Source: Cytophagaceae bacterium SCN 52-12 (GTDB lineage Bacteria; Bacteroidota; Bacteroidia; Cytophagales; Spirosomataceae). From it: DNA of 52,171 bases. Below, one piece after another: positions 8,198 through 52,171 of the stretch; position 1 is the first letter of the stretch; every line of letters begins with the position of its first letter. The DNA is taken from NCBI GenBank assembly GCA_001724175.1, contig MEDT01000044.1, positions 1 to 52,171 on the forward strand. Direction: 5' to 3'. The notes below the pieces were generated by a model. The model ran no database searches. It saw only the letters and a program-made list of their open reading frames with translations, and was not told the origin of the DNA. Made by a program: the position numbers and the translations under genes.

Positions 8198-9301
8198 CTA
8201 CTGTACAGGCTCTATGGCGATCGGGCTTCCGTTGGGGATTTCGTCGGTAGCGACTTTCAGGATAATATCACCGGGGTGTATATCGCCGAATATCTGGACC
8301 TGTGAATCGGTAATATCTCCCCGGTGCACGTTCACCCGCTCGGCCATACCATTTGCTACCTTGATGACAAAGGTCTGCTCCATATTGCTCAATACAGCCG
8401 ATTTAGGAACGAACACGCTGCCTTCATGAGCCTGAACCGGCAGGCGGGCCGAAACGTACATACCCGGTTTCAGCTTTCTTCCCGAATTTGAAATGTCAAT
8501 CTCAATCATCTCCGAGCGGGTATCAGGACGGACACTGTGCGAAATACGGCTGATGTTCCCGCTGAATACCTGGTTCTGGAATGTCCTGACCGTAAATTGC
8601 ACGGGAGTGCCCTCGCGGATATCGCCCAGGTAGGCTTCAGGCACAGCCAGCCGGAGACGAAGCCGGTCGAGCTGCTTGATTTTCAGCAGCGGCACTGAAT
8701 TCTGCCCGCCCGGACCTACGAAGGCTCCCGGCGACAGCCGGCGGTCTGTAACCACCCCCGCGAAGGGAGCGGTGATTTTCAGGTAGTCAACCAATTGCTT
8801 GACCGATTCATAATGCGCCTGCTCTGCAACCACCATCAGGCTGTCGGAAACAAGCTTCGCCCAGTAAGTCTCCACGTCCATCTCGGAAATGGCTCCCGGT
8901 GTCTGCCGCGTTTTGAGCGCACGCTGGTAGACCGCGCGGCTCGATTGGTAGCCTGCCTCGGCCGCCTTGACTTTGGAATAAGCGGCAGTGAGATTGGCAA
9001 TGAGCTCCGGCGCTTCGAGCTCGGCAAGCAGCTGGCCCTTGTTTACCCGGTCGCCGATGTCGACGTGCATTTTGCTGATGTAGCTGCTTACGCGGGGATA
9101 AAGATCGGTTTCATAAAAGCTTTCCAGCTCGCCGGGCAGGTTTATTTCCCTGACAGGCTGCGCGCCCCTGACCATAATGGCCGTATACCGGAATTCGTCA
9201 TTTTGGCTCCGGGTTTCCTCTGCCAGGTTTTCCGGGTGCTTTTTGGGTCCGCAGGAAGCCAGCAGGAGGGCGGCTACCGCTATTTTCAATATATGATTCA
9301 T
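8198..9301 (-). CDS. RND efflux periplasmic adaptor lipoprotein (HlyD/MFP family)
   Basis: This adaptor should link the inner-membrane RND pump encoded just upstream to a TolC-type outer-membrane channel. The start was set at ATG 9301, which gives a lipoprotein signal with lipobox LLLASC and 367 residues. The longer frame runs through repeat locus C and is not credible. Domains in order are: barrel-sandwich half with ISKMHVDIGDRVNKGQLLAELEAPEL at about residues 67-92 (lipoyl half), a helical hairpin, the second lipoyl half ITAPFAGVVTDRRLSPG, a beta-barrel and a membrane-proximal domain. It is the last gene of the tolC-RND-adaptor operon, separated from the pump gene by 82 bases of repeat. The MFP assignment is secure; the substrate is not known. 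Confidence 0.9.
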   Translation of the reverse strand: MNHILKIAVAALLLASCGPKKHPENLAEETRSQNDEFRYTAIMVRGAQPVREINLPGELESFYETDLYPRVSSYISKMHVDIGDRVNKGQLLAELEAPELIANLTAAYSKVKAAEAGYQSSRAVYQRALKTRQTPGAISEMDVETYWAKLVSDSLMVVAEQAHYESVKQLVDYLKITAPFAGVVTDRRLSPGAFVGPGGQNSVPLLKIKQLDRLRLRLAVPEAYLGDIREGTPVQFTVRTFQNQVFSGNISRISHSVRPDTRSEMIEIDISNSGRKLKPGMYVSARLPVQAHEGSVFVPKSAVLSNMEQTFVIKVANGMAERVNVHRGDITDSQVQIFGDIHPGDIILKVATDEIPNGSPIAIEPVQ

Positions 9302-9309
9302 TTGAAAAA

Positions 9310-9375
9310 AATGATGAGACGATAAGACAATGAGGCGATGAGATAATGAGACGATTTTCGATTTCTGACAGCTCA
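9310..9375. repeat. Tandem ATGAGACGAT-word repeat (locus C) inside the efflux operon
   Basis: Three tandem units of about 16 bases (ATGAGACGATAAGACA, ATGAGGCGATGAGATA, ATGAGACGATTTTCG) lie between the RND gene and the adaptor gene, which are transcribed in the same direction. They are followed by GATTTCTGACAGCT, a 14-base word also present in locus B. The block separates two cotranscribed genes and may affect message stability or relative expression; that part is inference. Confidence 0.7.
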
Positions 9376-9383
9376 TAACCATT

Positions 9384-12300
9384 TCAGTTAACGTGGTTGG
9401 AGATGGTCACCGATTGGGCCTCGGTGCTTTTCAGATCAAAATCTTCACTTTCGGGGTTGTCGGGATCGAGCGATACGGAATTGAACGACACCTTTTTCAT
9501 CATCAGCGAAAAGACAACCGGCAGTATGAACAGGGTGGCGACGGTGGAAGTGAGGAGTCCTCCGATAACCGCCCTTCCCAGCGGAGCTACCTGCTCGCCT
9601 GTGTCGCCGAAGCCGCTTGCCATAGGCACCATCCCTATAGACATGGCCAGGGTCGTCATCAGGATAGGCCGCAGCCGGAGTGTTCCGGCAGTCCTGGCAG
9701 CCACGCCTGCGTCGCGGTACTGGAGCCGCAGCGTTTCAGCGTTGGTGACGAGCAGCAGGGCGTTGGCTACCGAAACGCCTACCGACATGATAATTCCCAT
9801 ATAGGACTGCAGGTTGAGGGTCTGGCCCGTGACCAGCAGCAGGAAAAGGGCGCCTGCCAGCACCGACGGGATCGTGATCATGATGATGCAGGCCAGCCTG
9901 AACGACTGGTAGGTGGCAGACAGGAGGAGGAAGATGACCACGACAGCCAGGAGCAGGCCAAACTGCAGGCTTTCGAGCGTTTCCCGGAGAAGCTGGGCGA
10001 TGCCTTCCACGCTGACCACGCTGCCCCGGGGAGGATCGCCTGCGTCTGCAACCGCCTCGTGCACCGCTTCGCTGGCAGTACCGAGATCCACCTGGTGCGT
10101 ATTGGCCGTGATGGTAAGCATCCTGCGGGGGCCGCGCCTGTCGTACTGGGCGGGCACGTTGCTGGTAGAGATCGTAGCTACGTCGCCCAGGGTAGGTCTT
10201 AGCTGTCCTTTTACAAGCGGGATATTTTCGACATCGGCAACCGACTGCATATACTGGGGAGACATTTCTACCTGTACCTGGTAGGCGAAGCCTTTGCCCT
10301 GGTCGAGCCAGAGGTTTTTGGCGGTAAAGCGGCTGGAAGAGGTTGCTGCTACCAGCGATTTGGCGATCACGTCGACCGACAGACCCAGCTGCGCGGCCCT
10401 TTCCCGGTCGATATGGATCTGCACGGTAGGATAGCGCAGCGGCTGCTTGATCCGTACATCCCGCAGATAAGGTATCTTGTCGAGCTCTTTGATTATTTTT
10501 TGTGCAAATACCTGGTTTTCGGCAATATCTTTTCCGCCTATCACCACTTCGATAGGTGTGGAGGCACCCTGGCTCATGATCTTTTCAGTGAGCTCGATCG
10601 GCTCGAAAGTCGTTTTGAGATCGGGCAATTCCTTATGGATGCGCTGCCTGATCTGGTCCTTCAGGAGATCGAGCGATTCCAGCTTGTAATCGCGAGAGAG
10701 GCTTACCTGCAGGATCGCCTCGTGAGGCCCGGAATTGAACACGTACAAGGCGCTGGTCCCGTAGCTGGAAGGGGTCATGCCGACATAGGCCGACGTAATG
10801 GAGATATTCTGCTTCCCGACCAGGTCCTCCAGCTGTGCGAGCACCTCTTTCACCCGTTCCTCCATCCTTTCAAGCCGGAGGCCTTCGGGGCCTATCAGCC
10901 GGACCTGGAATTGCCTGGCCTTGTTCTGGCGCGGCATCAGGTCAGTCCCGATGTTCATAAACAAAATGGCGACCAGCGAAAAGGCGGCCACGAGGTAAAT
11001 CGCTACAACAGCTGTGCGCCGCTTCATCAGCCTGCTCAGCAGCAGGCCATAGCGATGCTGTATCTTGTCCATCAGCCCTGCTTTTTTCTCAGGCTTGGGA
11101 GCGTCGTCTCCGATATCTTCCGGGTGCTGATGCTCTTTGAGCCACCAGTTGCACAGGATAGGGACGAGCGTCTGTGAGAGTACATAGGAGACGATGATCG
11201 AAAAGCCTACCGCAAGCGACAGCGGCAGGAACATACCTTTGGGAATACCCGTCATCATAAAAGCCGGTGCAAATACGGCCAGGATGGCTACCGTAATCAG
11301 GAACAGCGGAAAGCTCATTTCGGCTGAGGCGTCTTTAACAGCCCGGGCTTTGCTTTTGCCCATTTCAAGGTGCTGGTGTATATTTTCTATCACTACGGTC
11401 GACTGGTCGACCAGGATACCGATCGCCAGCGCCAATCCCGACAGCGTCATGATGTTGATCGTCTGGCCGCTGAGCTGCAGCATCAGGATCGCCGATAAAA
11501 GCGATGCAGGGATGGTAAGAATCACGATCAGCGAGCTTCTCAGGTCTCTCAGGAAAAGGAATACCATGAGCCCGGTGAGGAGCGCGCCTAAACCGCCTTC
11601 CACCGCCAGCGCATGTACCGACTGCATCACATACACCGACTGATCGAACTCGTACGCCAGGTCTATGTATTCGGGCAGGAGGCTTTTCATCTCGGGCAGC
11701 TTCGCCTTGAGGGCGGACACAACCGACATGGTAGAGGCGTCGCCGGATTTGGATACCGGTATGTAAACCGAACGTTTCCCGTTGATCAGCGCATATCCTA
11801 CCGGGACGTCGGTCGCATCTTCCACCGTAGCGACATCGCGCATGAAGACCATCGGGCCTACGCCCTGTCTCAGCGGGATATTGAAAAAATCTTCCACGTT
11901 GTCGAGCACGGTGTTGCTCGGGGTCATTACCATGAAATCGCCGATGCGGACGTTGCCGGCCGGTGATATCTTGTTGTTGGCCACTACCGCCGCTACGATC
12001 TCATCAGGCGTAAGCTCGTAGCTTTTCATCCGCTCAGGGTCGACGCGTATGACCACCGTCCGCTCGTTGGAGCCGAAAGGAGAGGTAGCGATGCCTCCCG
12101 GTATCTGCGAAAATAGCGGTCTGATCCGCGATGAAGCCATATCCTGCAGCTCGGCGAGCGGAGCGCTTTTGCTGCTGAATACCAGCTGTCCTACCGGAAG
12201 CGACGAAGCATCGAACCTTACCACGGTGGGCGGGACCGTCCCGGGAGGGAGATAGTTCATTACCCGGTTGACCTGGTTGGCCACTTCGCCGGCGACCTGC

Positions 12301-12599
12301 GACATATCGACATTCTCGTAGAATGTACACTTGACAAGACAGGTCCCCTGTATATTTTTGACTTCTACATCTTTGATCCCCGATACGTACAGCATCTGGT
12401 TCTGGTAGCGGGTAGCGACGAAACCTTCCATCTGGTTGGCCGACATCCCGCCGTAAGGCTGGGAGATGTAAATGGTAGGCAGGTTCAGATTGGGGAAAAT
12501 ATCGACCGGTATCCTGAAGAGCGCCAGGGCTGCAAAAATAGCTACAGCAAAAAGCGCCACTACGATGGCAATTGGCTTGTTGAGTGCAGTCTTTAACAT
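9384..12599 (-). CDS. RND efflux permease, HAE1-like (AcrB family)
   Basis: This is a 1071-residue trimeric inner-membrane proton-driven exporter, the pump of efflux module 1. The N terminus (MLKTALNKPIAIVVALF) is the first transmembrane helix, followed by the porter domain with the GIKDVEVKN and GGIATSPFG regions, helices 2-6 around residues 325-480, a second porter half and helices 7-12. In the fourth helix, where AcrB has the proton-relay pair Asp407-Asp408, this protein has GILVDQSTVVIENI: Asp398 is kept and the neighbour is Gln399. It sits 9 bases after tolC and before the adaptor gene. The substrate cannot be deduced; this single-Asp form is seen in a branch distinct from classical multidrug pumps, as far as I can judge. 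Confidence 0.92.
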   Translation of the reverse strand: MLKTALNKPIAIVVALFAVAIFAALALFRIPVDIFPNLNLPTIYISQPYGGMSANQMEGFVATRYQNQMLYVSGIKDVEVKNIQGTCLVKCTFYENVDMSQVAGEVANQVNRVMNYLPPGTVPPTVVRFDASSLPVGQLVFSSKSAPLAELQDMASSRIRPLFSQIPGGIATSPFGSNERTVVIRVDPERMKSYELTPDEIVAAVVANNKISPAGNVRIGDFMVMTPSNTVLDNVEDFFNIPLRQGVGPMVFMRDVATVEDATDVPVGYALINGKRSVYIPVSKSGDASTMSVVSALKAKLPEMKSLLPEYIDLAYEFDQSVYVMQSVHALAVEGGLGALLTGLMVFLFLRDLRSSLIVILTIPASLLSAILMLQLSGQTINIMTLSGLALAIGILVDQSTVVIENIHQHLEMGKSKARAVKDASAEMSFPLFLITVAILAVFAPAFMMTGIPKGMFLPLSLAVGFSIIVSYVLSQTLVPILCNWWLKEHQHPEDIGDDAPKPEKKAGLMDKIQHRYGLLLSRLMKRRTAVVAIYLVAAFSLVAILFMNIGTDLMPRQNKARQFQVRLIGPEGLRLERMEERVKEVLAQLEDLVGKQNISITSAYVGMTPSSYGTSALYVFNSGPHEAILQVSLSRDYKLESLDLLKDQIRQRIHKELPDLKTTFEPIELTEKIMSQGASTPIEVVIGGKDIAENQVFAQKIIKELDKIPYLRDVRIKQPLRYPTVQIHIDRERAAQLGLSVDVIAKSLVAATSSSRFTAKNLWLDQGKGFAYQVQVEMSPQYMQSVADVENIPLVKGQLRPTLGDVATISTSNVPAQYDRRGPRRMLTITANTHQVDLGTASEAVHEAVADAGDPPRGSVVSVEGIAQLLRETLESLQFGLLLAVVVIFLLLSATYQSFRLACIIMITIPSVLAGALFLLLVTGQTLNLQSYMGIIMSVGVSVANALLLVTNAETLRLQYRDAGVAARTAGTLRLRPILMTTLAMSIGMVPMASGFGDTGEQVAPLGRAVIGGLLTSTVATLFILPVVFSLMMKKVSFNSVSLDPDNPESEDFDLKSTEAQSVTISNHVN

Positions 12600-12608
12600 G
12601 AAAGTGGG

Positions 12609-14036
12609 TTAATTAGGGATTTGTTCCAGGAAAACGTCAAAGTCGCCCTTGGCAGCAGCTTTGATCAGCAGGGATCTCCATACATTGTTCACTGAAATCA
12701 GGTATTCCGTTTCCGCCCTGATGTAGAGGTCTGTCACCTGGGTAAGGAGCATAATGTTTTCCATCCCGCTTTCGTAACGGGCCATAGACTGCGCATAGGC
12801 ATTTCTGGCTGCATCGAGCATGACGGGGGTTTTCTGGACCGACTGGTAGGAGAGGTTGAACTGGATATCGGAGCTTTTCAGCTCCGCCGTCGTTCTCATC
12901 ATGGCCGTATTGTATTCTTCCGTGAGCGCATTATAGCGGAACTGCTGCGCCGCGAGCCGGCGCCGGATCTCGAAGGTCCTGGTCGGATGCCAGACCAGCG
13001 TCGCGCCCAGGGCGTAGTTAAAGGCACGCAGACCGAGCCCTGAGAAGGATGAGGATATCGTAAAATCGCCGTCAGGTCCGGGCTTCTGGTCTATTCCGGA
13101 GCCTCTGCCCCAGAAGGAGCCGATCATATGCAGCTCGGGCATAATCCCGAGGCGGGTTCTCTTCATTTCGTTTTCCGCTTCTTTCTGACGGGAAAGGAGC
13201 GTCCGGAGGCGCGGATGTTTTTCGGGCTCGCTGCTGGCAAAGCTGAAGCTTGCCGGAAGCCTGGAGAAGAAGCTCATGGTGTCAATTTCCAGCTCTTTGC
13301 CTGCCTCCCCGATCAGCTCGCTCAGCAAAACTTCGTATTTTTTGGCCTGTGCCTGGCTTTCCATCCATTGAAGGAGCGCCCGGGTAGACTCTGCGATCGC
13401 GATAGAGCTGTCTATCCCTGCCTTGAGGCCGGAGCTGGCGTTCGCCCTTGTCACCGTCACGATGTCTTCCGTACGGCGAAGGTTTCGCTCCTGCAGGCGT
13501 GTATATTTTAATGCGTTCAGGGCCAGCAGGTAAGCGTCGGCTACTTTGATCTGGTGTTCAAAAAGCTCCTGCTCATAGACCTGGGCGGCGGTTTGTTCCC
13601 TGGAAGCGGCCAGGGTTCTGTCGGCGTCCTTCTTCCCGAATGTAAAAGCCTGCCAGTCGACAACTGTAGAGGCGAGCGAAGTCCAGGCGGGCTGCCAGTC
13701 GAAACCGTTCGGCTTTACCGAGCCGCTCAGGCCGAGCAAAAGGCCGTCATAGCCCAGGTTGGCGCCTCTCACCTGGTTGGAAGTGCTGAATAATGCCTGG
13801 GCCTGGATACCGGCTTTGGGATAGTAAGCCGCCATCGCCGCCCGAAGGTCTTCGCCGGCAGCCAGCTTTTCTGCGATCCTTTTCTTCAGGGTCGGGTAGT
13901 TGGCCCTGGCCTTTTCAAGAGCCTGCAGAAGATTAACCGATACGATCTCTTCGGACTGCTGGGCAAAACTTCGGTAAGAAAGAATATAGAAAAAGAAGAG
14001 AGTGAGAAAGAAAGCGAATCCGGGGCTTCGTAACAT
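12609..14036 (-). CDS. TolC family outer-membrane efflux channel
   Basis: This 475-residue protein has a signal peptide (ending RSFAQQ at about residue 27) and the two long coiled-coil/helical repeats of outer-membrane efflux proteins, with NLLQALEKARANYPTLKKR in the first and a second repeat near residues 280-470. It should be the outer-membrane duct for the RND pump and adaptor encoded downstream, and it is the first gene of that operon. Its upstream region carries three phased CTAAT sites (14087-14114), which suggests direct control by the two-component regulator encoded 1.6 kb upstream on the same strand. A start at ATG 14036 fits the signal peptide. Confidence 0.88.
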   Translation of the reverse strand: MLRSPGFAFFLTLFFFYILSYRSFAQQSEEIVSVNLLQALEKARANYPTLKKRIAEKLAAGEDLRAAMAAYYPKAGIQAQALFSTSNQVRGANLGYDGLLLGLSGSVKPNGFDWQPAWTSLASTVVDWQAFTFGKKDADRTLAASREQTAAQVYEQELFEHQIKVADAYLLALNALKYTRLQERNLRRTEDIVTVTRANASSGLKAGIDSSIAIAESTRALLQWMESQAQAKKYEVLLSELIGEAGKELEIDTMSFFSRLPASFSFASSEPEKHPRLRTLLSRQKEAENEMKRTRLGIMPELHMIGSFWGRGSGIDQKPGPDGDFTISSSFSGLGLRAFNYALGATLVWHPTRTFEIRRRLAAQQFRYNALTEEYNTAMMRTTAELKSSDIQFNLSYQSVQKTPVMLDAARNAYAQSMARYESGMENIMLLTQVTDLYIRAETEYLISVNNVWRSLLIKAAAKGDFDVFLEQIPN

Positions 14037-14086
14037 AATGCGCTGAAATGCCTTTAAATTTTATCTCAGCAAAATACAGCCGGCAG

Positions 14087-14114
14087 ATTAGGATGGGATT
14101 AGCTGCCGATTAGA
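14087..14114 (-). promoter_or_regulatory. Three-unit, 11-bp-phased response-regulator operator in front of tolC (module 1)
   Basis: On the minus strand TCTAAT (14114-14109), GCTAAT (14103-14098) and CCTAAT (14092-14087) are spaced exactly 11 bases apart. This is the spacing of half-sites bound head-to-tail by OmpR/PhoB-family regulators. A -7-like TATTTTG follows at 14076-14070, so the array covers the -33 region, the usual position for an activator. The first unit is 78 bases from the tolC start. A matching five-unit array precedes the second tolC gene at 46477. Confidence 0.7.
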
Positions 14115-14272: not shown

Positions 14273-15661
14273 TTATGCATACGGGAAGGGGAAATCGACA
14301 ACGATCTCCGTGCCTTTACCGATTTCGGAAGACATCGTGATTCCTCCCCGGTGGAGCCTGATGATTCGTTGCGCCAGCGTCAGGCCTATTCCGAACCCCT
14401 GCCGGGAAGTAGCATTCGAGCCTCTCTGGAGCGGCTCAAGGATCTGCAGCATCTCGTTTTGAGGGATCCCTATCCCCCGGTCCCTGACCCGTACCCTCAG
14501 CGACGTTTCGGTATTCATTTCCAGGGAGATGCTTACCTCGTTATCGTTGGAGTATTTACAGGCGTTGTCGATCAGGTTGGTAATGGCAGCTTTCAGCAGG
14601 GTTTCTTCGCCTGGTATGACCAGGGGCCGGTCCTGCAGCCTGACGCCGTCGCTGAAGGTAAGCCGTATCTTCTGAAGCGGCCATTTCGACTGCACCTGGT
14701 CCATGCAGTCCATCAGCAGCTCCATCATATCGACTTTATGGGTGTTGATGTAATCCTCCTGGTTCTCGATCCCGGCGAGCATCAGCAGCCCGTTCGAAAG
14801 GCTGATGAGGCGATCCAGCTCGGCGATCGCTTTTTGCTGGCTTTCCCTCAGGCTAGTCTCATCCTTATCGTAATAGAGCGCGGTTTCCAATAGCCCTTTG
14901 AGGGTAGCCATCGGGGTGCGGAGCTCGTGCGAGGCCTGGGAGATAAACGACCTTTGGTTGGCAATCAGGCGTTCATGCTGGTCAAGCAGCTCGTTAAAAG
15001 ACGTGGTCAGGGAGCCTACCTCGTCGCCCGGGGTGAGATTCTGAAGGCGGAATGACAGGGAATTGTTGAAGCGCCCTTTGATCTGGTCGATCAGGGAATT
15101 AAGGGGAGACAGTGTTCTCAGGGCAAAAAAATGTGCAAAAATGGCGACCAGCGCAATGCAGATAATATTTGTAAGGATGAGCAGGTCGGCGAGCGATTCC
15201 TGTCGCTGGTACCCTTCCGAATCGTACGCCGTTATGATGGCGACGTACGGCTTCTCCGAATCAGGCTGAAAGGATACCCGGTAGGCCATAGCCACGCCGT
15301 TTTTTTCGCGCTCATGCGCTTTTACGGGGTAAGAGAAAAAAAGCTTTCCTTCCTGCCTGACGCTGTCGAGGAAAGAAGGAGCAGGGTAAAAATCATAGAC
15401 CTGTATATTGGAATAATAAAGGCTGTCCGTACCGGAAAAGACGAGGTCCGTCTGCTCATTGAGAACGGTATTGATGCTTCCTTTCAGGCTTCCTTCGGGA
15501 TCAAACAACTGCTGGGTGCCCAGGACCCGTCGCTCCAGGCGCTGCTGGAAGAAGGTATTCCGGTGCTTGGCATACGTGAAATAGATAAACAGCGAAAATG
15601 AAAGCAGCACCAGCGTGACGAAGAAAACGAACCACAAAATCAGGCGATGACGGATCAGCAT
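14273..15661 (-). CDS. Two-component sensor histidine kinase (module 1)
   Basis: This is a 462-residue inner-membrane sensor kinase. Order of domains: first membrane helix at residues 8-30, a periplasmic sensor of about 125 residues, second membrane helix at about 158-181, HAMP linker, HisKA box FISQASHELRTPMATLKG with phospho-accepting His245, and an ATPase domain with N box NLIDNACKYS, G1 box RDRGIGIP and G2 box GFGIGLTLA. It is encoded 4 bases after its response regulator, so the two are one operon. The location directly upstream of the tolC-RND-adaptor operon suggests it senses a compound exported by that pump or the envelope stress it relieves; the signal is unknown. Confidence 0.92.
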   Translation of the reverse strand: MLIRHRLILWFVFFVTLVLLSFSLFIYFTYAKHRNTFFQQRLERRVLGTQQLFDPEGSLKGSINTVLNEQTDLVFSGTDSLYYSNIQVYDFYPAPSFLDSVRQEGKLFFSYPVKAHEREKNGVAMAYRVSFQPDSEKPYVAIITAYDSEGYQRQESLADLLILTNIICIALVAIFAHFFALRTLSPLNSLIDQIKGRFNNSLSFRLQNLTPGDEVGSLTTSFNELLDQHERLIANQRSFISQASHELRTPMATLKGLLETALYYDKDETSLRESQQKAIAELDRLISLSNGLLMLAGIENQEDYINTHKVDMMELLMDCMDQVQSKWPLQKIRLTFSDGVRLQDRPLVIPGEETLLKAAITNLIDNACKYSNDNEVSISLEMNTETSLRVRVRDRGIGIPQNEMLQILEPLQRGSNATSRQGFGIGLTLAQRIIRLHRGGITMSSEIGKGTEIVVDFPFPYA

Positions 15662-15665
15662 GTCT

Positions 15666-16340
15666 CTATTCCTTTAGCATATAACCCATACCAATGACGG
15701 TGTGAAGAAGCTTCTGGGGGCGCCCGGCTTCGATTTTCTTCCTGAGGTAGTTGATGTAAACATCAATGACATTCGTATTGGTATCAAAGCGGATGTCCCA
15801 GACCTTTTCGGCGATATCTACCCTGCTTACAATTTTCCCGGCATTCAGCATCAGGTATTCGAGCAGGGCGTATTCCCGGCTGGTCAGGTTGATGCGCTGC
15901 CCGCCCCGTGTAACGATGCGTGCGTCGGCATGAAGGACAAGGTCGGCGACGGCGATGCTCCTGCCGGTATCTTCCAGGGGCGCTATTCTCCGGCCCAGGG
16001 CCTTGAGCCTGAGCACCAGCTCCCTGAATTCAAAGGGCTTGACCAGATAATCATCAGCGCCCGATCCGAATCCTTTCTCTTTATCTGTTATGCTGTCAAG
16101 GGCCGTAAGCAGGAGCACGGGCTGCGTTTTGTCGTTGCCCTTGATCTCTTTGCAAAGGTCGAAGCCATTGATTTTAGGAAGATTAAGGTCGAGAATGACG
16201 ACGTCGTATTTTTTGCCGTCATAAAACCGCAGCCCCATGAGACCATCAAAAGCCACGTCGACGTCGAAACCTTCCTCGTTCAGACCTCTTTTGATAAACG
16301 ACGCTACGTTAGCTTCATCTTCTACCAGTAAAATCCGCAT
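15666..16340 (-). CDS. OmpR-family response regulator (module 1)
   Basis: The protein has 224 residues from ATG 16340 (MRILLVEDE); the longer frame to 16421 adds a non-homologous leader. The receiver domain shows the acidic pocket (VEDE), phospho-accepting Asp51 in ILDLNLP, Thr in LLLTALD and Lys in LVKPF. The C-terminal winged helix has NLTSREYALLEYL and the recognition helix region NVIDVYINYLRKKIE. That region is nearly identical to the regulator of module 2, so both may bind the same CTAAT repeats. It is likely the activator of the downstream efflux operon through the site at 14087-14114. A perfect TATCTTTG box lies 53 bases upstream. Confidence 0.93.
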   Translation of the reverse strand: MRILLVEDEANVASFIKRGLNEEGFDVDVAFDGLMGLRFYDGKKYDVVILDLNLPKINGFDLCKEIKGNDKTQPVLLLTALDSITDKEKGFGSGADDYLVKPFEFRELVLRLKALGRRIAPLEDTGRSIAVADLVLHADARIVTRGGQRINLTSREYALLEYLMLNAGKIVSRVDIAEKVWDIRFDTNTNVIDVYINYLRKKIEAGRPQKLLHTVIGMGYMLKE

Positions 16341-16392
16341 GTTCTGAACCCTGATCTGTCTAAGTACTGTTTCCCTGGCTTGAAAGCAAAGG

Positions 16393-16400
16393 CAAAGATA
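16393..16400 (-). promoter_or_regulatory. Candidate -7 promoter box of the module 1 regulator-kinase operon
   Basis: The minus strand reads TATCTTTG, a full TAnnTTTG match, 53 bases before the regulator start. A single CCTAAT hexamer (16410-16405) lies just upstream of it, which might be an autoregulatory half-site, though no phased partner is present. No clear -33 TTG was found. Confidence 0.4.
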
Positions 16401-16448
16401 CGAAATTAGGTGTTTGGCCATAAACTGGTAAATTACCTTTCGGAGTGC

Positions 16449-43815: not shown

Positions 43816-44235
43816 ATGTTTATACAGGAGATACTGGATATCGTCCCTAAAAAAAGGGGGTTTCATCTGATTACGGGCCAGGTTACGGACGCGTTGCACG
43901 GCATCGGTACCTGGAAAGCCGGGATGTGCCAGGTGTTCATACAGCACACTTCCGCTTCATTGACGCTCAACGAAAATGCGGACCCGACGGTCAGGATGGA
44001 TTTTGAAACTTATTTCAATAAATCAGTTCCCGAAAATGACCCCGATTACCGGCATGACTACGAAGGTGCAGACGACATGCCCGCTCATATCAAATCGTCG
44101 CTGCTGGGTGCATCGGTGCTGATCCCGATCCGTAACGGCCGTCTTGCGCTGGGCACCTGGCAGGGCATCTATCTTTGCGAGCACCGCGACAGGGGAGGCA
44201 GCCGAAGGGTGGTTGTTACCGCATGGGGAGCATAA
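43816..44235 (+). CDS. YjbQ/UPF0047 family protein (secondary thiamine-phosphate synthase-like)
   Basis: This 139-residue single-domain protein has the family patterns FIQHTSASLTLNENADP (residues about 42-58), HDYEGADDMPAHIKSSL and LGTWQGIYLCEHRDRGG near the C terminus, with the conserved His and Glu residues of the putative metal/active site. Weak thiamine-phosphate synthase activity has been reported for the family, but the true role is unsettled. It lies 32 bases before the module 2 response regulator on the same strand and could be cotranscribed with it. Confidence 0.9.
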   Translation: MFIQEILDIVPKKRGFHLITGQVTDALHGIGTWKAGMCQVFIQHTSASLTLNENADPTVRMDFETYFNKSVPENDPDYRHDYEGADDMPAHIKSSLLGASVLIPIRNGRLALGTWQGIYLCEHRDRGGSRRVVVTAWGA

Positions 44236-44267
44236 AGACAGGGCAGGTATCTGAATGTAATGATGCT

Positions 44268-44951
44268 ATGAGAATACTGTTAATAGAGGATGACCAGCGG
44301 GTAGCCGAGCTGATCAGGAGAGGACTGGAAGAATATGGGTTTGCGCCCACGCTCGCTTATGACGGCCTGCTCGGGAAAAAGCTGGCCCTGCAGAATACCT
44401 ACGACCTGATTATTACCGATATCATACTGCCCAAAATGGACGGCCTGGACCTGTGCAAGCACATCAGGCAGGTTAAGCCCGATATACCTATCATCATGCT
44501 TACCGCCCTGGGCACGACCGACGACAAGGTGGAGGGGTTCGATGCCGGTGCGGACGACTACCTGGTGAAGCCGTTTGAAATGCGTGAATTGCTGGTCCGG
44601 ATCAGGGCTTTACTGAAACGCAATCAGAAGCCGGCCGGTGGCAGCACCGGTTTTGTATTGAAGTATGCCGATCTTGAAATGAACCTGAATACCAAGATCG
44701 CTAAAAGAAGCGGCCGGGAAATCAACCTCACACCCAAGGAATTCAAGCTCCTGGAGTATATGCTGCAAAACCCGGAGCGCGTACTGTCAAGGGTAGAGAT
44801 AGCGGAAAAGGTCTGGGACACTCATTTCGACACGGGAACCAACTTTATAGACGTGTATATCAACTATCTCCGGAAAAAGATAGACAGGGATTTCGAGAAA
44901 AAGCTCATTCACACAAAATCGGGAATGGGGTTTATCCTTAAAAGCGAATGA
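44268..44951 (+). CDS. OmpR-family response regulator (module 2)
   Basis: The protein has 227 residues from ATG 44268 (MRILLIEDD); a longer frame starting at 44175 overlaps yjbQ and is rejected. The receiver domain has the acidic pocket IEDD, phospho-accepting Asp51 in IITDIILP, the Thr in MLTALG and Lys in LVKPF. The winged helix has NLTPKEFKLLEYML and the recognition segment NFIDVYINYLRKKID, nearly the same as in the module 1 regulator. It is the likely activator of the tolC-adaptor-DUF190-pump operon through the five-unit array at 46477-46526. It resembles metal-responsive CusR/CopR/CzcR regulators, but the signal is not shown. Confidence 0.93.
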   Translation: MRILLIEDDQRVAELIRRGLEEYGFAPTLAYDGLLGKKLALQNTYDLIITDIILPKMDGLDLCKHIRQVKPDIPIIMLTALGTTDDKVEGFDAGADDYLVKPFEMRELLVRIRALLKRNQKPAGGSTGFVLKYADLEMNLNTKIAKRSGREINLTPKEFKLLEYMLQNPERVLSRVEIAEKVWDTHFDTGTNFIDVYINYLRKKIDRDFEKKLIHTKSGMGFILKSE

Positions 44952-44957
44952 AATAGG

Positions 44958-45054
44958 CATTAGGTTTTAGGTATTAGGTTTTGGGTTTTGGCAGGCTAAT
45001 ACCTAAAACCTAATACCTAAAACCTAACACCTAAAGCCTAACACCTCAAACCTC
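44958..45054. repeat. CCTAATACCTAAAA-word inverted repeat (locus E) between regulator and kinase genes
   Basis: The left arm (44958-44990) reads CATTAGGTTTTAGGTATTAG and onward; the right arm (about 44997-45054) has CTAATACCTAAAAC repeated with a 14-base period and then decays. The arms are near-complementary, so the 110-base gap between two cotranscribed genes can fold into a long A/U-rich hairpin. The words contain CTAAT but at 14-base, not 11-base, spacing, so this is unlikely to be a regulator array. Confidence 0.75.
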
Positions 45055-45061
45055 CATACAC

Positions 45062-46429
45062 ATGAAAATAAGGGCACAGATCACCTTCCTGTTTACGGTC
45101 GTTACAGCGCTTATCCTGCTGGTATTTGCGTCTGTCATTTACTATACGGCGAATGAAAGCCGGGAGCGGGAATTTTACTCGCTGCTGAAAAAGGAAGCGG
45201 TCACCAAAGCCAATCTTTTCTTCGACGCCAACGTCGACAAGAAGCATTTGCAGGAAATTTACAAGAATAACCGGAAGATCCTTGACGAAGTCGAGATCGC
45301 CATTTACGATACGGGCTTCCACCTGCTCTACCACGACGCGGAGGACATTGACTATGTGAAGGAAAGCAGCGAAATGATCGGGGAAATTCTCAAGCGGGGG
45401 GAGATCTCTTTTTACCAGGAAGATTGGCAGGTCGTAGGCATCCGGTACGAATTTAACGGCAAAAGCTACATTGTAACCGCTACGGCTTACGACCACTACG
45501 GTTTTACAAAGCTGAACCGGCTTCTGAAAGACTGTATCCTGGTATTCATTATTTCTATCCTGTTTATTTACCTGGCCGGGCGCTTTTTTTCCGGGAAGGT
45601 GCTCGATCCGGTCATAGAAATGACTGAAAGAGCGAAGGTTATTTCGGCGACCAGCCTCGACCTTCGTATAAAAAGCAACGGCAGCCGGGATGAGCTTTCG
45701 GAGCTGGCCAATACTTTTAACGAAATGCTGGGAAGGCTGGAAAACTCTTTTGAATCCCAGAAGCATTTTGTTTCGAATATCTCGCACGAGATCAGGACAC
45801 CTCTGGCCGCTATTATTACCGAGCTGGAGCTGTCTTCGGACAGGGAGCGTACAAGGGAAGAGTATAAGGCGGCGATCAGGGACGCGCTTCTGGATGCACG
45901 GAAGCTCGCCCACCTGTCAAACAGCCTGCTGGATATGGCCAAGGCAAGCTACGACCCGGCCGAAATAGCTTTTAAGGAGGTAAGGATAGACGAGATCCTG
46001 CTGGATGCCAGGTACCAGCTTCAAAAGGCTAACCCTTCGTATCGCATCGACATCCATTTTGAAAACGATTTTGACAGCGACAACCAGATTTCGGTAAACG
46101 GCAACGAATACCTGCTTAAAGTGGCTTTCACAAACTTATTTGAAAACGGGTGCAAGTTTTCCGGGAACAGGCAAAGCCTTGTAACCGTCGCTTTCGGTCA
46201 GGAGGGCATTATCCTTAAGTTTTCGGATGAAGGCATCGGAATTCCCGAAGATGACCTGGAAAGCGTTTTTACCCCGTTTTATCGCGGGAAAAACAAGAAT
46301 TTCGCTTACGGCAACGGGATCGGGCTTTCTCTGACCCGTAAAATCATAGACCTTCACAAAGGCAGTCTTTCCGTCGAATCCGAAGAACACCGGGGCACAA
46401 CCTTTACGGTGGTGCTCGGCCACATCTGA
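45062..46429 (+). CDS. Two-component sensor histidine kinase (module 2)
   Basis: This 455-residue inner-membrane kinase has its first membrane helix at residues 8-30, a periplasmic sensor of about 125 residues, a second helix at about 156-174, HAMP, and the HisKA box FVSNISHEIRTPLAAIITEL with His242. The ATPase domain has NLFENGCKFS, DEGIGIP and GNGIGLSLT. The architecture matches the CusS/CopS group, but no metal-ligand cluster is evident by eye in the sensor. It is separated from its regulator gene by repeat locus E and followed after 154 bases by tolC. Confidence 0.92.
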   Translation: MKIRAQITFLFTVVTALILLVFASVIYYTANESREREFYSLLKKEAVTKANLFFDANVDKKHLQEIYKNNRKILDEVEIAIYDTGFHLLYHDAEDIDYVKESSEMIGEILKRGEISFYQEDWQVVGIRYEFNGKSYIVTATAYDHYGFTKLNRLLKDCILVFIISILFIYLAGRFFSGKVLDPVIEMTERAKVISATSLDLRIKSNGSRDELSELANTFNEMLGRLENSFESQKHFVSNISHEIRTPLAAIITELELSSDRERTREEYKAAIRDALLDARKLAHLSNSLLDMAKASYDPAEIAFKEVRIDEILLDARYQLQKANPSYRIDIHFENDFDSDNQISVNGNEYLLKVAFTNLFENGCKFSGNRQSLVTVAFGQEGIILKFSDEGIGIPEDDLESVFTPFYRGKNKNFAYGNGIGLSLTRKIIDLHKGSLSVESEEHRGTTFTVVLGHI

Positions 46430-46476: not shown

Positions 46477-46526
46477 TCTAATAGGATTCTAATTTTTTTC
46501 TGTAGCGCTTCTAACAGCCCTCTGAC
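46477..46526 (+). promoter_or_regulatory. Five-unit, 11-bp-phased response-regulator operator in front of tolC (module 2)
   Basis: Hexamers begin exactly every 11 bases: TCTAAT (46477), TCTAAT (46488), TCTGTA (46499), TCTAAC (46510) and TCTGAC (46521). A -7-like GACATTTG (46538-46545) follows, overlapped by the palindrome TGTCATGACA (46532-46541). No -33 TTG is present, as is usual for activator-dependent promoters. The same hexamer and spacing occur before the module 1 tolC gene. Confidence 0.72.
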
Positions 46527-46583
46527 GGTGATGTCATGACATTTGTGCCGTGCATTTATCACATTATTCAATATCCTAATGAA

Positions 46584-47849
46584 ATGTTAGTGCGTGTCAG
46601 ACCTCATCTTTTAACCGGGCTTCTGCTGTACTTCGCATCGGCCGGTGCGGCCGGCGCCCAAAGCGGCCATTCGCTCCGGATGGCACTGAGGGAGGCCAGG
46701 GAAAACAACCTGGCGCTGAAGGCGGAAAAGTTAAGCATCGACATAGCAGAGACCGACGTAGTGACAGCCGGCTTACGGCCTAACCCGGTTTTGAACAACC
46801 AGGCATTGCAGCTGGTGAGCCCTTCTCATTTCCCGGAGAGGACAGGATGGCTGAACGGTCACAACGTGCAGAACTGGTGGCAGCTGACAAAAACCTTCCA
46901 GGTAGCGGGGCAGCGGGCCAACAAGCTGGATTTTGCAGGCAGGAATGCGGTGGTAGCGGAGAAAAGCTACCGGGAAGCTGAAAGGAACCTGTTCCGGGAT
47001 GTGGCCGGCAAGTGGCTGGAAGCATGGATAGCCCTCAAGCAGCTCGACATGCTGGGCATCGCCAAAAGCAATATCGATAGCCTTACCTATATCAACCAGC
47101 TGCGGTTCCGGAACCAGGTTATTACGCAGACCGATCTTTTCCGTACCCAGGTGCTGGCACGACAGTATGACGTCAGGTATAAGGCTGCCTTGCAGGAGAT
47201 CGCCAACCGGGAGCGGGAGCTGCGGCAGCTGCTCGGGCGCAGGGAGAACATCGCGATCGATACTGCCGATTCTTTCCTGCCTGCTTTTCCGGCCGGCAGG
47301 GACAGCCTGCTGTCGCAGTCATTGGCCATAAGAAGCGACGTTGCGGCGGCGAAGTCCGCAATCGAGGCGGCCGGCAGTAATATCAGGCTTCAGAAATCGC
47401 TCGCCTACCCGCAGCCGGAGCTGGGTATTATCTGGAACCCCCAGAACACCGTCCCCTATGTAGGAGTTTACGGCACCATAGATCTTCCTTTTTTCAGCAG
47501 GAACCAGGGAGAGATCAGGAAGTCGGTCATCCAGAAAGCCCGGGCCGAGCAGGAGCTCGAGTCGATACAGAGCCGGCTTGAGACTGAGGTGACAAATGCG
47601 CTGGCAAGCTACGAAACCCACCGGAAGAATGTACAGGGATTTCAGCCTATCCTCGAGCAATCCAACCTGATTTTAGAGAATGTCAAATACGCGTACCTGA
47701 AAGGAGGAACTACGATCGTAGACTTCCTGGAGGCTCAGCGCAGCTGGCTGGACACCCGGCAGGAATATTACGAAGCACTGCAGGAATACCGGAAAAGCTA
47801 TATAGAGCTGCTCTACACTACAGGTACTATTAATCAATTAGCTCAATAA
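46584..47849 (+). CDS. TolC family outer-membrane efflux channel, CusC/CzcC-like
   Basis: This is a 421-residue outer-membrane efflux protein. The start was set at ATG 46584, which gives a signal peptide (MLVRVRPHLLTGLLLYFASA, cleaved after GAQ); an upstream ATG at 46536 lies within the predicted promoter. The two-repeat helical pattern has LRMALREARENNLALKAEK at the start and the second repeat with KSAIEAAGSNIRLQKSLAYP, ending with GGTTIVDFLEAQRSWLDTRQ. It is the first gene of the metal-type efflux operon. Its stop TAA overlaps the ATG of the adaptor gene by one base. Confidence 0.9.
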   Translation: MLVRVRPHLLTGLLLYFASAGAAGAQSGHSLRMALREARENNLALKAEKLSIDIAETDVVTAGLRPNPVLNNQALQLVSPSHFPERTGWLNGHNVQNWWQLTKTFQVAGQRANKLDFAGRNAVVAEKSYREAERNLFRDVAGKWLEAWIALKQLDMLGIAKSNIDSLTYINQLRFRNQVITQTDLFRTQVLARQYDVRYKAALQEIANRERELRQLLGRRENIAIDTADSFLPAFPAGRDSLLSQSLAIRSDVAAAKSAIEAAGSNIRLQKSLAYPQPELGIIWNPQNTVPYVGVYGTIDLPFFSRNQGEIRKSVIQKARAEQELESIQSRLETEVTNALASYETHRKNVQGFQPILEQSNLILENVKYAYLKGGTTIVDFLEAQRSWLDTRQEYYEALQEYRKSYIELLYTTGTINQLAQ

Positions 47850-48853
47850 TGAAGCATATCCATTTGATCGCCGTTCCGCTGCTGATGCTCTCGTCGTGCA
47901 ACCGGAAAGAACCTGCCGCGCCGCAGAAAGCAGCAGTCCCGGCAGTAGTGAGCCAGGGACAGACCATTTCATTCAGCGATGAAAAGACAGCGGCATTTTT
48001 CAACACTGAAAAGGCTGGCAGCGGCAGCATTCATGCCGACTACAAGGCCGTAGGGAAGATCGGGGCCACTATCTCGCCTTCCAATGCGGGCGCTTCCCAG
48101 AATATTGTATTGTTCGAAAACCCTGATCTGGCGGGCAACTACACCCAGCTGATGCAGCACCAGATCAATATCAGCCAGATCGAGAACATCAACATCAGGC
48201 AGAAAAAGATCGAGCTCGAAAGGACCAGCGATCTGCAGCAGCATGGCGCGGCGACAGGACGGGACCTGCTCAATGCGCAGCTGGCCGTAAGCATGGAGGA
48301 AACCAACCTTGCCAACGAAAGGGCGGCGCTGACCGAGCATGAAGCACGCCTGAAATCGGGCGGGTTTGACCCGGTGCTGCTGCGCCGCGCGAGAGCGGGA
48401 ACCGCCTACATTATTTGCGATGTGCCTGAAAATCAGATCGCCAAGATCAAAGCGGGAAGCGCCTGTAAAATTGTGTTCACCTCGTTTCCGGACGAAACAT
48501 ATACCGGGAGGGTAGAGAACATAGCCGATATGATGGACAATACTACCCGTATGGTAAAAGTACGGATCAGCGTCAACAACAGCTCGAGCAAGCTGAAGGC
48601 CGGGATGTTTGCCGATGTTTCATTCGGGTTGAGCGAAGGGAACTTTATCACCGTCAGCAAGAATTCGCTGGTCACCGTACAGGGAAAGCATCATGTTTTT
48701 GTGAAGAAAAGTCCGGGAGAGTTTGAGCGGCGGGAAGTACAGACCGGGCAGCAGATCGGCGACAGGATAATTATTTTCAGCGGGTTAAGCGACGGCGAGG
48801 AGGTAGTCACAGAAGGCGTGATGCAGCTGAAGGGACTTTCGTTCGGCTATTGA
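47849..48853 (+). CDS. Compact periplasmic adaptor lipoprotein of a heavy-metal RND pump (CusB/CzcB-like)
   Basis: This 334-residue lipoprotein has lipobox LMLSSC. After the N-terminal linker the canonical lipoyl half (Gly-x-V...KGQ-x-L) is hard to find. Instead SQNIVLFENPDLAGNYTQLM leads into the helical hairpin (NINIRQKKIELERTSDLQQHGAATGRDLLNAQ) and then the beta-barrel AYIICDVPENQIAKIKAGS and DNTTRMVKVRISVNNSSSKLKAGMFADV. The lower length and reduced lipoyl domain suggest a compact adaptor variant. It is translationally coupled to tolC and followed after 10 bases by the DUF190 gene. Confidence 0.87.
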   Translation: MKHIHLIAVPLLMLSSCNRKEPAAPQKAAVPAVVSQGQTISFSDEKTAAFFNTEKAGSGSIHADYKAVGKIGATISPSNAGASQNIVLFENPDLAGNYTQLMQHQINISQIENINIRQKKIELERTSDLQQHGAATGRDLLNAQLAVSMEETNLANERAALTEHEARLKSGGFDPVLLRRARAGTAYIICDVPENQIAKIKAGSACKIVFTSFPDETYTGRVENIADMMDNTTRMVKVRISVNNSSSKLKAGMFADVSFGLSEGNFITVSKNSLVTVQGKHHVFVKKSPGEFERREVQTGQQIGDRIIIFSGLSDGEEVVTEGVMQLKGLSFGY

Positions 48854-49166: not shown

Positions 49167-52100
49167 ATGATCAGGAACCTTCTCCTATTTTCGCTTAAAA
49201 ATCGCTGGCTCGTAGTGGCATTCAGCATCATCGTCATGGGCGCGGGCTTTTATTGCTTTACGAAGCTCAAGATCGAAGCCTACCCCGATATAGCGGATAC
49301 AAACGTTATCATCGTTGCCCAGTACCCGGGAAGGGCGGCCGAAGAAGTGGAGCTGCAGGTAACGGTCCCGATCGAGCGGGCACTACAGAATACCCCCGGC
49401 GTGTTAGACAGGAGAAGCCGCACGATCTTCGGCCTGAGCGTGGTACAGCTGACTTTTAGGGACGGTACCAACGATTATTTTGCACGCCAGCAGGTATTGG
49501 AGAGGCTCACGGGCGCGCAGCTGCCCGACGGGGTCGCCCCGGAGCTGGCGCCTCTTTCGACGGCTGTAGGAGAAATACTCCGTTACGTGGTCGAAGCCCC
49601 GCCGACCTATACGCCGACCCAGTTGCGGGATCTCCAGGACTGGGTAATCAAGCCCTACCTGCTGCAAACGGATGGAATTGCGGATATCACGACTTTCGGA
49701 GGGCCCCTGAAGCAGTTTTATATACTGACCTCGCCCGACAAGCTCCGGAAATACAATCTTACGATCAGCGACGTAGAAAATGCGGTGGAAGCCAATAACC
49801 AGAATACGGGCGGTGGTATCCTGGAAAGGGGAGGGCAAGGGTTTGCCGTCAGGGGATTGGGGGCGATCAAAAACGAGAAGGATATCGAGAACATCGTCCT
49901 GAAATCGGCAGAAGGAGTGCCGGTTTTCGTACGCGATGTGGCCAGCGTCGAAATAGCGCCGCCGCCTCCCAGCGGCGTATTGGGCTACTCTATCCCGGAC
50001 CAGGACGTTAATGTGAACAACGGCGTAGAGGGGATTGTCCTGCTGCGCCGCTATGAAAATCCAAGCGAGGTGCTGGCCGATCTGAAAGTCCGGATCGATG
50101 AGCTGCAGGCGCATGAGCTCCCGGAAGGCGTTACGATCCGGAAGCTGTACGACAGGAGCTTCCTGATCGATCACTCGCTCCATACCGTAGGTCAGACGCT
50201 GTTTGAGGGAATCAGCATAGTGGTGCTGGTGCTGATCTTCTTCCTGGGCAGCGCGCGGAGCGCCCTGGTGGTGGCCCTGACCATCCCGTTTTCACTGTTG
50301 TTTGCGTTTATACTGATGCGTTTGACCGGCATACCGGCCAACCTGCTCTCGCTGGGGGCTATTGATTTCGGTATCATTGTCGACGGCGCATGCGTGATGG
50401 TAGAGCACCTGATCCGGAAATATAAAACCGCCACACCGGAGGAGAGGCAGGAAGGAATACAGAAGATAACGCTCCTGGCCGCCCAGGAAGTCGGGCGGGA
50501 GATCTTTTTTTCGGTCACCATCATCATACTGGCTTATATGCCGATCCTGATGATGACCAGGGTGGAAGGGAAGCTGTTCTCTCCTATGGCCCTGACGCTC
50601 GCCTTTGCGGTGATAGGCTCCATGCTGGCAGCTCTCACCTTCATACCTGTACTGGTTTCATTCGCCTATCACAAAGCCATGTCGGGCAGGCAGGAAATGA
50701 AAGAGCACCGGAATGTGATCCTGTCATTTCTTGAGAAACGATATGAGGCTGCGCTTGCCAGGATATTGCGCGGATATAAACCTGCGGTGATAGCCGGCTT
50801 TTCGGTCGTGCTGGTTCTTGTCGCTTTCGGGTTAAAGCTCGGAACGGAGTTTCTGCCGGAGCTGGATGAAGGTTCCATCTTTCTCCGGGGAAATTTCCCT
50901 GCCGGGATCACCATCCGGGAAAATGCCCGGAATGCGCCTGCCATCCGGAACATCATTGCGCGGTATCCGCAGATCGCCTTCGTGATCACGCAGACAGGCC
51001 GTAACGACGAAGGTACCGATCCCTTCCCGGCCAACAGGAACGAGATACTCGTAGGCTTAAAAGACTACCACCTGTGGAGCGACACGATTTCCAAGAAGGA
51101 GCTGATCGGGCTTGTCCGCGCCGATCTCGAAAAAGAGCTGCCGAGCGTCAGATTTACGTCCGGACAGCCTATAATCGACCAGGTCATGGAAATCGTGACC
51201 GGGAGCGCCGCCGACCTTGCGGTTTCGATCGTAGGCGATGACCTGCATGAAATGCGCGGCAAAGCCGACAGCATCGCTACGATAGTAAGGTCGATGAAAG
51301 GGAGCGAGGGTGTGAACATCGAGCAGGAAGGTGCGCAGGAGCAGCTCGCTATCAATATCAACCGTGAAAATGCAGCCCGTTACGGCATCAACATCGCCGA
51401 TATTCAGAACATGATAGAAGCGGCTATAGGCGGTAAGACATTGTCGGTGCTGTACGACGGCACCAAGCGGTATGACGTCGTAATCCGTTATCTGCCGGAG
51501 TTCCGCAACAATATCGACGAGATCAAAAAGCTGCTGGTGGCTTCGGCGACCGGGTCGCTGATCCCGATGGAGCAGCTGGCCGATATCGGGTTTGTCGAGG
51601 GGCAAACCAATATTTACCGCTACAACAACAAAAGGATGGTAACGGTGCGGACCAATATACGGGGGATCGACCAGGGAAGATTTGTAGCGGAGCTGCAAAA
51701 AAGGATATCGAAGGAAGTGCATATCCCGAAAGGCGATCATATCGTGTACGGCGGGCAATATGAAAACCTGGAACGGGCCGGCCGGCAGCTTTCACTGACG
51801 ATCCCTCTTACCATCGCGGTAGTCTTTGCCTTTCTTTTTATGCTTTTCAAAAACCTGAAGCATACGCTGATCACCATGAGCTGCATCCTGTTTGCGCTGG
51901 CGGGCGGCATTATGGCGCTGCTGCTCCGGGGCTATTATTTCAATGTATCGGCCGGTGTCGGTTTCGTGTCGATTTTCGGTATTTCGGTGATGGCCGGGGT
52001 GCTCCTGGTATCGGCCCTGAATCGCGGCGCCGCTTTGCAGCCGGCAGGAAGCCTGATGATCGCACAGATTTCGAAAGAACAGCTGCGGGCGCTCCTTTCT

Positions 52101-52171
52101 ATCCTGGTGCTGGCGATCCTCGGGCTCATACCGGCCGCCACCTCGAAAGGGATCGGCTCTGACGTACAGCG
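49167..52171 (+). CDS. Heavy-metal efflux RND permease, CzcA/CusA family (partial, runs off the window)
   Basis: From ATG 49167 the frame is open for 1001 codons plus two bases to the window end, with about 30-50 residues missing by family length. The N terminus MIRNLLLFSLKNRWLVVAF is helix 1. The porter region has KIEAYPDIADTNVIIVAQYPG and QYPGRAAEEVELQVTVPIE, characteristic of HME pumps. Helix 4 has AIDFGIIVDGACVMVEHL with the proton-relay Asp406 (CusA Asp405). The second half contains ELDEGSIFLRGNFP and FGISVMAGVLLVSALNRG. It exports divalent or monovalent heavy-metal ions with the upstream adaptor and channel. The ion cannot be read reliably by eye. Confidence 0.93.
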   Translation, partial: MIRNLLLFSLKNRWLVVAFSIIVMGAGFYCFTKLKIEAYPDIADTNVIIVAQYPGRAAEEVELQVTVPIERALQNTPGVLDRRSRTIFGLSVVQLTFRDGTNDYFARQQVLERLTGAQLPDGVAPELAPLSTAVGEILRYVVEAPPTYTPTQLRDLQDWVIKPYLLQTDGIADITTFGGPLKQFYILTSPDKLRKYNLTISDVENAVEANNQNTGGGILERGGQGFAVRGLGAIKNEKDIENIVLKSAEGVPVFVRDVASVEIAPPPPSGVLGYSIPDQDVNVNNGVEGIVLLRRYENPSEVLADLKVRIDELQAHELPEGVTIRKLYDRSFLIDHSLHTVGQTLFEGISIVVLVLIFFLGSARSALVVALTIPFSLLFAFILMRLTGIPANLLSLGAIDFGIIVDGACVMVEHLIRKYKTATPEERQEGIQKITLLAAQEVGREIFFSVTIIILAYMPILMMTRVEGKLFSPMALTLAFAVIGSMLAALTFIPVLVSFAYHKAMSGRQEMKEHRNVILSFLEKRYEAALARILRGYKPAVIAGFSVVLVLVAFGLKLGTEFLPELDEGSIFLRGNFPAGITIRENARNAPAIRNIIARYPQIAFVITQTGRNDEGTDPFPANRNEILVGLKDYHLWSDTISKKELIGLVRADLEKELPSVRFTSGQPIIDQVMEIVTGSAADLAVSIVGDDLHEMRGKADSIATIVRSMKGSEGVNIEQEGAQEQLAININRENAARYGINIADIQNMIEAAIGGKTLSVLYDGTKRYDVVIRYLPEFRNNIDEIKKLLVASATGSLIPMEQLADIGFVEGQTNIYRYNNKRMVTVRTNIRGIDQGRFVAELQKRISKEVHIPKGDHIVYGGQYENLERAGRQLSLTIPLTIAVVFAFLFMLFKNLKHTLITMSCILFALAGGIMALLLRGYYFNVSAGVGFVSIFGISVMAGVLLVSALNRGAALQPAGSLMIAQISKEQLRALLSILVLAILGLIPAATSKGIGSDVQ

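Follow-up and report, generated by a model that had tools for sequence, protein, structure and literature searches.

Direct-repeat operators of OmpR/PhoB-type regulators are already known, as is operator sharing by CopR, CusR and CzcR. The PmrA box is HTTAAK, and Riemerella anatipestifer belongs to the Bacteroidota. In the available extracts of the published work, the operator of M. tuberculosis PhoP was an 11-bp direct repeat (a 7-bp TCACAGC plus a 4-bp spacer) on which binding could be extended to trimers and tetramers, and the PhoP-DNA crystal structure had Tyr220 in the major groove, forming a hydrogen bond to C5, the second base of TCACAGC (PMC4832192). Extracts of three other reports described base reading by Asn196 of PmrA (PMC4660055), one palindrome shared by Pseudomonas CopR, CusR and CzcR, which cross-regulate each other's targets with few in common (PMC11195947), and a DAP-seq motif, TTTAACA, for R. 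anatipestifer PhoP (PMC9603813).

The stretch of DNA analysed here (the window) was 52,171 nt of contig MEDT01000044.1 from Cytophagaceae bacterium SCN 52-12. It contained two efflux modules with the same opening order (Table 1): module 1, all on the minus strand, comprised RR1, HK1, array 1 and then an operon tolC1-RND1-MFP1, and module 2 comprised RR2, HK2, array 2, tolC2, MFP2 and RND2. The original prediction, of three NCTAAT hexamers at exact 11-bp spacing before tolC1, was confirmed on the minus strand (14114-14087); the two spacers were CGGCA and CCCAT, and 50 bp separated the end of the array from the tolC1 ATG (14036). The array predicted before tolC2 was also present, but was longer than first stated, with four units running through 46515. 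The first ATG of tolC2 (46536) overlapped a predicted -7 box, and translation may in fact begin downstream of 46545. An inverted CTAATACCTAAAACCTAAT pair was seen between RR2 and HK2 (44959-45014 of the window), and near variants of it recurred across the genome.

The module 2 pump had been predicted to be of metal type, and this was borne out, RND2 scoring 826.8 bits against the CusA/CzcA cut-off of 701 (TIGR00914) and thus belonging to that family. The module 1 pump, predicted to be HAE1-like, was not clearly so: RND1 gave 361 bits against the HAE1 cut-off of 940 (TIGR00915), by which that assignment was not upheld, and it also failed the heavy-metal model (353 bits against 701, TIGR00914).

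Both RR1 and RR2 scored above the cut-offs of PF00072 and PF00486, indicating OmpR/PhoB-type regulators (Pfam). For both, the best model was TIGR01387 (CopR/CusR/CzcR heavy-metal regulators), with 233.5 and 226.8 bits, respectively, under its cut-off of 279. A recognition segment common to the two regulators, as predicted, was found in each. Within the helix (TNxIDVYINYLRKKI) RR1 and RR2 differed at a Val/Phe position only, so the hexamer alone should not separate the modules. RR1 could here be aligned without gaps with M. tuberculosis PhoP, and PhoP Tyr220 fell on the helix Tyr; counting from Asn188, PmrA Asn196 (numbered as in the available extract) occupied the same helix position.

Table 1. 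Features of the two efflux modules in the window
Feature	Coordinates	Strand	Description	Sequence or basis
Module 1
MFP1	8198..9382	-	periplasmic adaptor	
RND1	9384..12599	-	inner-membrane pump, 1071 aa	Pfam ACR_tran
tolC1	12609..14036	-	outer-membrane efflux protein, 475 aa	Pfam OEP
-7-like element	14070..14076	-	weak, 10 nt past array 1, incomplete match to TAnnTTTG	TATTTTG, read from sequence
Array 1	14087..14114	-	predicted RR1 operator before tolC1; three NCTAAT units, exact 11-bp steps	TCTAAT-CGGCA-GCTAAT-CCCAT-CCTAAT
HK1	14273..15661	-	histidine kinase	TIGR01386 best model, score under its cut-off
RR1	15666..16421	-	OmpR/PhoB-type response regulator	helix TNVIDVYINYLRKKIE, wing HTVIGMGY
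Codon of RR1 Tyr225 (ORF numbering)	15747..15749	-	equivalent of PhoP Tyr220, predicted reader of C in TCTAAT	
Module 2
RR2	44175..44951	+	OmpR/PhoB-type response regulator	helix TNFIDVYINYLRKKID, wing HTKSGMGF
Codon of RR2 Tyr231 (ORF numbering)	44865..44867	+	same helix position as RR1 Tyr225	
HK2	45062..46429	+	histidine kinase	
Array 2	46477..46515	+	predicted RR2 operator before tolC2	TCTAAT-AGGAT-TCTAAT-TTTTT-TCTGTA-GCGCT-TCTAAC
-7-like element	46538..46545	+	7/8 match to TAnnTTTG, 22 nt past fourth array 2 unit (counted by eye)	GACATTTG
tolC2	46536..47849	+	start inferred	
MFP2	47849..48853	+	periplasmic adaptor	
RND2	49167..52169	+	CusA/CzcA heavy-metal pump, open at window end	

The array 1 triplet had a single occurrence in the window and was absent from all 100 shuffles, and CTAAT-N6-CTAAT was observed three times against 0.09 expected. 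(A scan allowing one mismatch proved too loose on chance, with 1.81 expected, and was superseded by these shuffle and exact-pair counts.) In the assembly (5.12 Mb, 79% complete) the 11-bp CTAAT pair came up four times: array 1 accounted for two of these, array 2 for one and contig C46 for the fourth. All four stood just behind OmpR/PhoB regulator-kinase gene pairs, while pairs at 10 and 12 bp were found once each. Spacings of 14 and 16 bp gave numerous pairs across the whole assembly, many of them from a few recurring, REP-like strings. A reversed control pattern gave 6 matches against 4 true ones, although, having TAAT in common, it partly matched true arrays, including array 1. This genome-wide scan indicated that the phased word was rare and not randomly placed. 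The same operator word did precede both tolC operons, as the original prediction held, but a private link between the two pumps could not be maintained, a third copy standing behind a third regulator-kinase pair.

The third copy was a TCTAAT pair ~160 bp behind its gene pair (locus L012, 3048-3215), with a TATATTTG box and, ~115 bases on, a terminator-like hairpin. No convincing gene was found before the hairpin among plus-strand ORFs of at least 25 aa beginning there, the sole such ORF (37 aa) starting inside the last bases of the array; a 124-aa ORF farther on ran in the opposite direction, and Rfam gave no match at the array. From its surroundings, this array perhaps serves a short transcript or is the remnant of a lost target. 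A fourth regulator of the genome with the helix Tyr (Tyr-type), on contig C36, had no callable array beside it, and a Phe-type regulator on contig C56 had TTTAAG-N5-TTTAAG, a pair only, before its tolC.

Among relatives, 222 genomes of the family were scanned for CTAAT-N6-CTAAT-N6-CTAAT; 66 of them held 85 matches in all, and the reversed pattern gave 38, a count contaminated by true arrays (overlapped by 9 of 30 control loci examined); gene context was used instead. For 80 of the 82 distinct sites (our own site and one in G216 were left out), ~4 kb of flanking sequence, less at contig ends, was analysed. A kinase of this kind, a divergent regulator or a TolC/MFP/RND gene adjoined 51 of these sites and was absent at 29. 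With equal short flanks, such a neighbour was present at 11 of 30 true loci, the other 19 being without one, versus 1 of 21 control loci that did not overlap arrays. Wherever a linked site had a regulator nearby, Tyr was at the helix position (44 of 44).

Arrays of several other kinds were noticed among these matches. In the matches listed, module-1 orthologs (G138, G141, G175, G176 and G178-G183) had a fourth or fifth unit and one 10-bp step, the step patterns in several genera being 10-11-11 or 11-10-11-11; such arrays seem to follow helical phase and not a rigid 11 bp, so that the units all face the same side of the helix. Behind HK2-like kinases, thirteen arrays had six units (L134, L136, L143, L145, L146, L148, L175, L176, L178, L184, L188, L193 and L204), of which the fourth was TCTCAT and the fifth TCTAAC in nine and TCTAAT in four, and most were followed by a small ORF and then a ~550-aa protein. 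Three loci of genus g8 (L126, L128 and L129) carried triplets with CTAATAAGT at their end, upstream of genes encoding 458-820-aa proteins; none of the flanking genes matched the reference regulators or kinases, and these triplets are possibly distant regulon members. On inspection by eye of 74 regulator upstream regions, CTAAT pairs were found in two only (forward at L050, reversed at L082), so general autoregulation through the CTAAT word was not supported. At L082, three reversed 11-bp CTAAT pairs lay upstream of the regulator in addition to an array behind the kinase, and autoregulation is possible there.

A survey starting from the kinase was also employed. The set combined relatives of HK2 in 118 genomes of the order (the best candidates, at most 14 per genome, 110 of ~136 places being taken in and other places in our own genome being present already) with 42 of 80 named RR1 relatives (L046-L087) and with our own genome; the other named RR1 relatives, mostly from other phyla, were left out. 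The set yielded 133 regulator-kinase pairs and 129 distinct regulators (87 from the order, 38 named and 4 of our own), after removal of loci with <250 bp behind the kinase and of repeated regulators; the contig-end C56 Phe-type regulator was also absent. An HK1 query of 148 genomes of the phylum returned its own gene and one place already included, and was not used. TAA triplets at a fixed period were scored in 440 bases beginning 40 before the kinase end, the letter before TAA being free. With TAA picked from arrays already seen, all nine letters fitted at period 11 in 66 of the 129 distinct loci, and in at most 2 at each of periods 8, 9, 10, 12, 13 and 14 (before duplicate removal, 68 of 132, and at most 2 of 132 for the other six periods). 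The arrays have the form of OmpR/PhoB-type direct-repeat operators: their units follow one another in tandem at close to one turn of the helix, next to a candidate target promoter.

The letter before TAA was clear in 74 of the 129 loci. At loci with Tyr in the helix (...VYINYLRKKI) it was C 50 times and T 5 times; where the helix had Phe, Leu, Ile or His instead, it was T at all 19. This Tyr/Phe column ranked first among the 225 of the alignment by mutual information with the letter, 0.53 above shuffles, the next being at 0.24. From a further 79 loci, 57 were kept (3 had no pair, 9 were already used and 10 were duplicates). Among these, Phe-type regulators had T in 31, C in 0, mixed letters in 1 and no array in 7, although 29 of the 31 were orthologs reached with one kinase and carry little independent weight. 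Tyr-type regulators were looser (C 6, T 3, mixed 5, none 4), 6 of the 14 called arrays being mainly C. Altogether, 51 of 186 distinct regulators, including the C36 Tyr-type one, had no callable array. In the pooled called arrays, at least one CTAA unit was present in 75 of 78 belonging to Tyr-type regulators, in 1 of 50 of the Phe type and in 1 of the 7 whose regulator had another residue; by units, Tyr arrays held 154 C and 46 T, and Phe arrays 1 C versus 137 T. Judged by these counts, Tyr prefers C yet tolerates T, and Phe arrays almost never have C.

A tree was built from the regulator (helix masked) plus the kinase; it is of a quick kind, and its support values need caution. On this tree there were at least 9 changes of residue and 14 of letter. 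Supported branches gave 6 independent pairs, on average 5.4 of them concordant and 0 opposite (median sign-test p 0.031, range 0.031-0.125); an earlier regulator-only tree gave 3 supported pairs. Ten genomes held both residue types with called arrays, and 9 of them fitted the rule, a few of the arrays being weak. The loss of the hydroxyl in Phe would be expected to fit a switch to T. These comparisons of sequence show the shared TCTAAT code to be a real property of the Tyr-type paralogs of the clade generally, beyond the two modules, and Tyr-type regulators likely read the same switches. In the open-licence literature, as far as its accessible text extends, no report of the phased array or of a Tyr/Phe operator code was found.

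The Bacteroidota -7 element is TAnnTTTG. In the 60 bases past 103 perfect arrays (distinct regulators), 24 such boxes were found versus 3.7 expected, most of the arrays being without an exact box. As many as 22 of the 24, from 18 genera or isolates, started 10-11 or 21-22 nt past the array, where 0.25 were expected, and the commonest distance in relatives was 22.

We consider it probable that array 1 is a tandem operator of RR1, likely activating tolC1-RND1-MFP1, and that TCTAAT is read by the whole Tyr-type clade, RR2 included. Phosphorylated regulator monomers would lie side by side and head to tail, one on each unit; Tyr would hydrogen-bond the C of TCTAAT, and Phe would go with T. The array would abut a Bacteroidota-type promoter, so that the regulator would recruit RNA polymerase to it. 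On such a mechanism there may be cross-talk between the RR1 and RR2 modules. If the modules are insulated, this would be through kinase-regulator pairing, perhaps together with the wing reading the spacers.

The two modules may share their word through descent only, being old duplicates kept fully separate by kinase pairing and local binding. The regulators were 48% identical overall and the kinases only 28%, and each module in the window has its own array, both of which fit such a history. Yet the hexamer was kept while spacers and unit number varied, and C or T followed the residue over at least 9 changes, which speaks for selection on reading, if not for cross-reading. We regard separation by descent as quite possible, if somewhat doubtful.

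With kinases only 28% identical, kinase pairing may well insulate the modules. The original statement that insulation must come from the kinases was nevertheless too strong, as the spacers and wings (HTVIGMGY versus HTKSGMGF) offer a possible second route, though by an association that is not phylogenetically independent. In Tyr-type regulators with a basic wing and a small second residue (such as HTKS or HTRP), spacer GC was 0.11 versus 0.44 around (18 arrays); in those with a Val/Ile wing it was 0.51 versus 0.49 (22 arrays), showing no preference. These wing classes were drawn after the data had been seen, and array 2 was left out by the first-two-units rule. A simple basic-wing rule was contradicted by 11 of 95 arrays, and the wing changed twice only on the tree, giving 2 independent pairs. 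Because of the post-hoc classes, the contrary arrays and the two changes, the link of wing to spacer, strong as it is in counts, is kept here as a hypothesis. The differences in wing and spacer are a possible route, at the DNA level, to partial insulation. They also suggest that cross-talk may be one-way, RR1 binding both arrays and RR2 its own only: RR2 may shun array 1 (CGGCA, CCCAT), and RR1 would tolerate both. Extended to the Bacteroidota, this would be a code with two dials, in which the helix residue sets the second letter and the wing sets the spacer (A/T-rich for a basic wing, any for a Val/Ile wing), so that paralogs sharing the hexamer but differing in spacer would show one-way cross-talk. 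We put this code forward tentatively, as something short of likely.

A joint regulon, in which RR1 as well as RR2 would bind and activate the two arrays so that the pumps answer together to either signal, seems to us unlikely. The hexamer is the same and the helices nearly so, and there is a precedent in the one palindrome shared by Pseudomonas CopR, CusR and CzcR, but the same study, in its available extract, gives few shared targets (PMC11195947). Moreover, each array stands behind its own regulator-kinase pair, here and in many relatives, and the modules differ in spacers and wings. Ownership of the arrays by another regulator, such as the Tyr-type regulator on C36 or that on C46 controlling all of them, is improbable: the C36 regulator, for which no adjacent array was found, would be a candidate, but arrays take their letter according to the residue of the regulator next to them, within single genomes too. 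That the arrays are no operators at all, but a promoter element, bent DNA or a chance repeat, is scarcely credible given the period specificity, the gene context compared with control sites and the residue covariation, even though words rich in A and T are common and repeat families account for many of the other CTAAT pairs in this genome.

It is common for a genome to encode numerous paralogous two-component systems, whose targets are hard to predict. With phased TCTAAT arrays taken as tandem operators of the Tyr-type regulators, the residue-letter rule would allow a prediction, by sequence alone, of which members of the clade could share operators and which are likely insulated at the DNA. 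The question of cross-talk between the two pumps can then be addressed directly, by binding assays that pair natural proteins with natural DNAs.

Compared with the known systems, as far as the extracts of those reports describe them, the arrays resemble the operator of R. anatipestifer PhoP in regulator family and in a core that fits the T-type word TTTAA; the regulon is another one, and the likeness is one of motif. CopR, CusR and CzcR are closely related metal-response regulators that act on one operator, but theirs is a palindrome, in contrast to the phased direct repeats here, and their cross-regulation was measured, whereas ours is predicted. The system of PmrA shares tandem half-sites and a base-reading residue at the same helix position, but has Asn rather than Tyr or Phe, has two half-sites and is found in enteric bacteria. 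In M. tuberculosis PhoP, as here, 11-bp repeats are arranged head to tail, with Tyr on the cytosine at unit position 2 (a bond that is predicted here); the arrays described here differ in their word, TCTAAT, in having 3-6 units, in belonging to another phylum, and in that residue and letter covary across paralogs.
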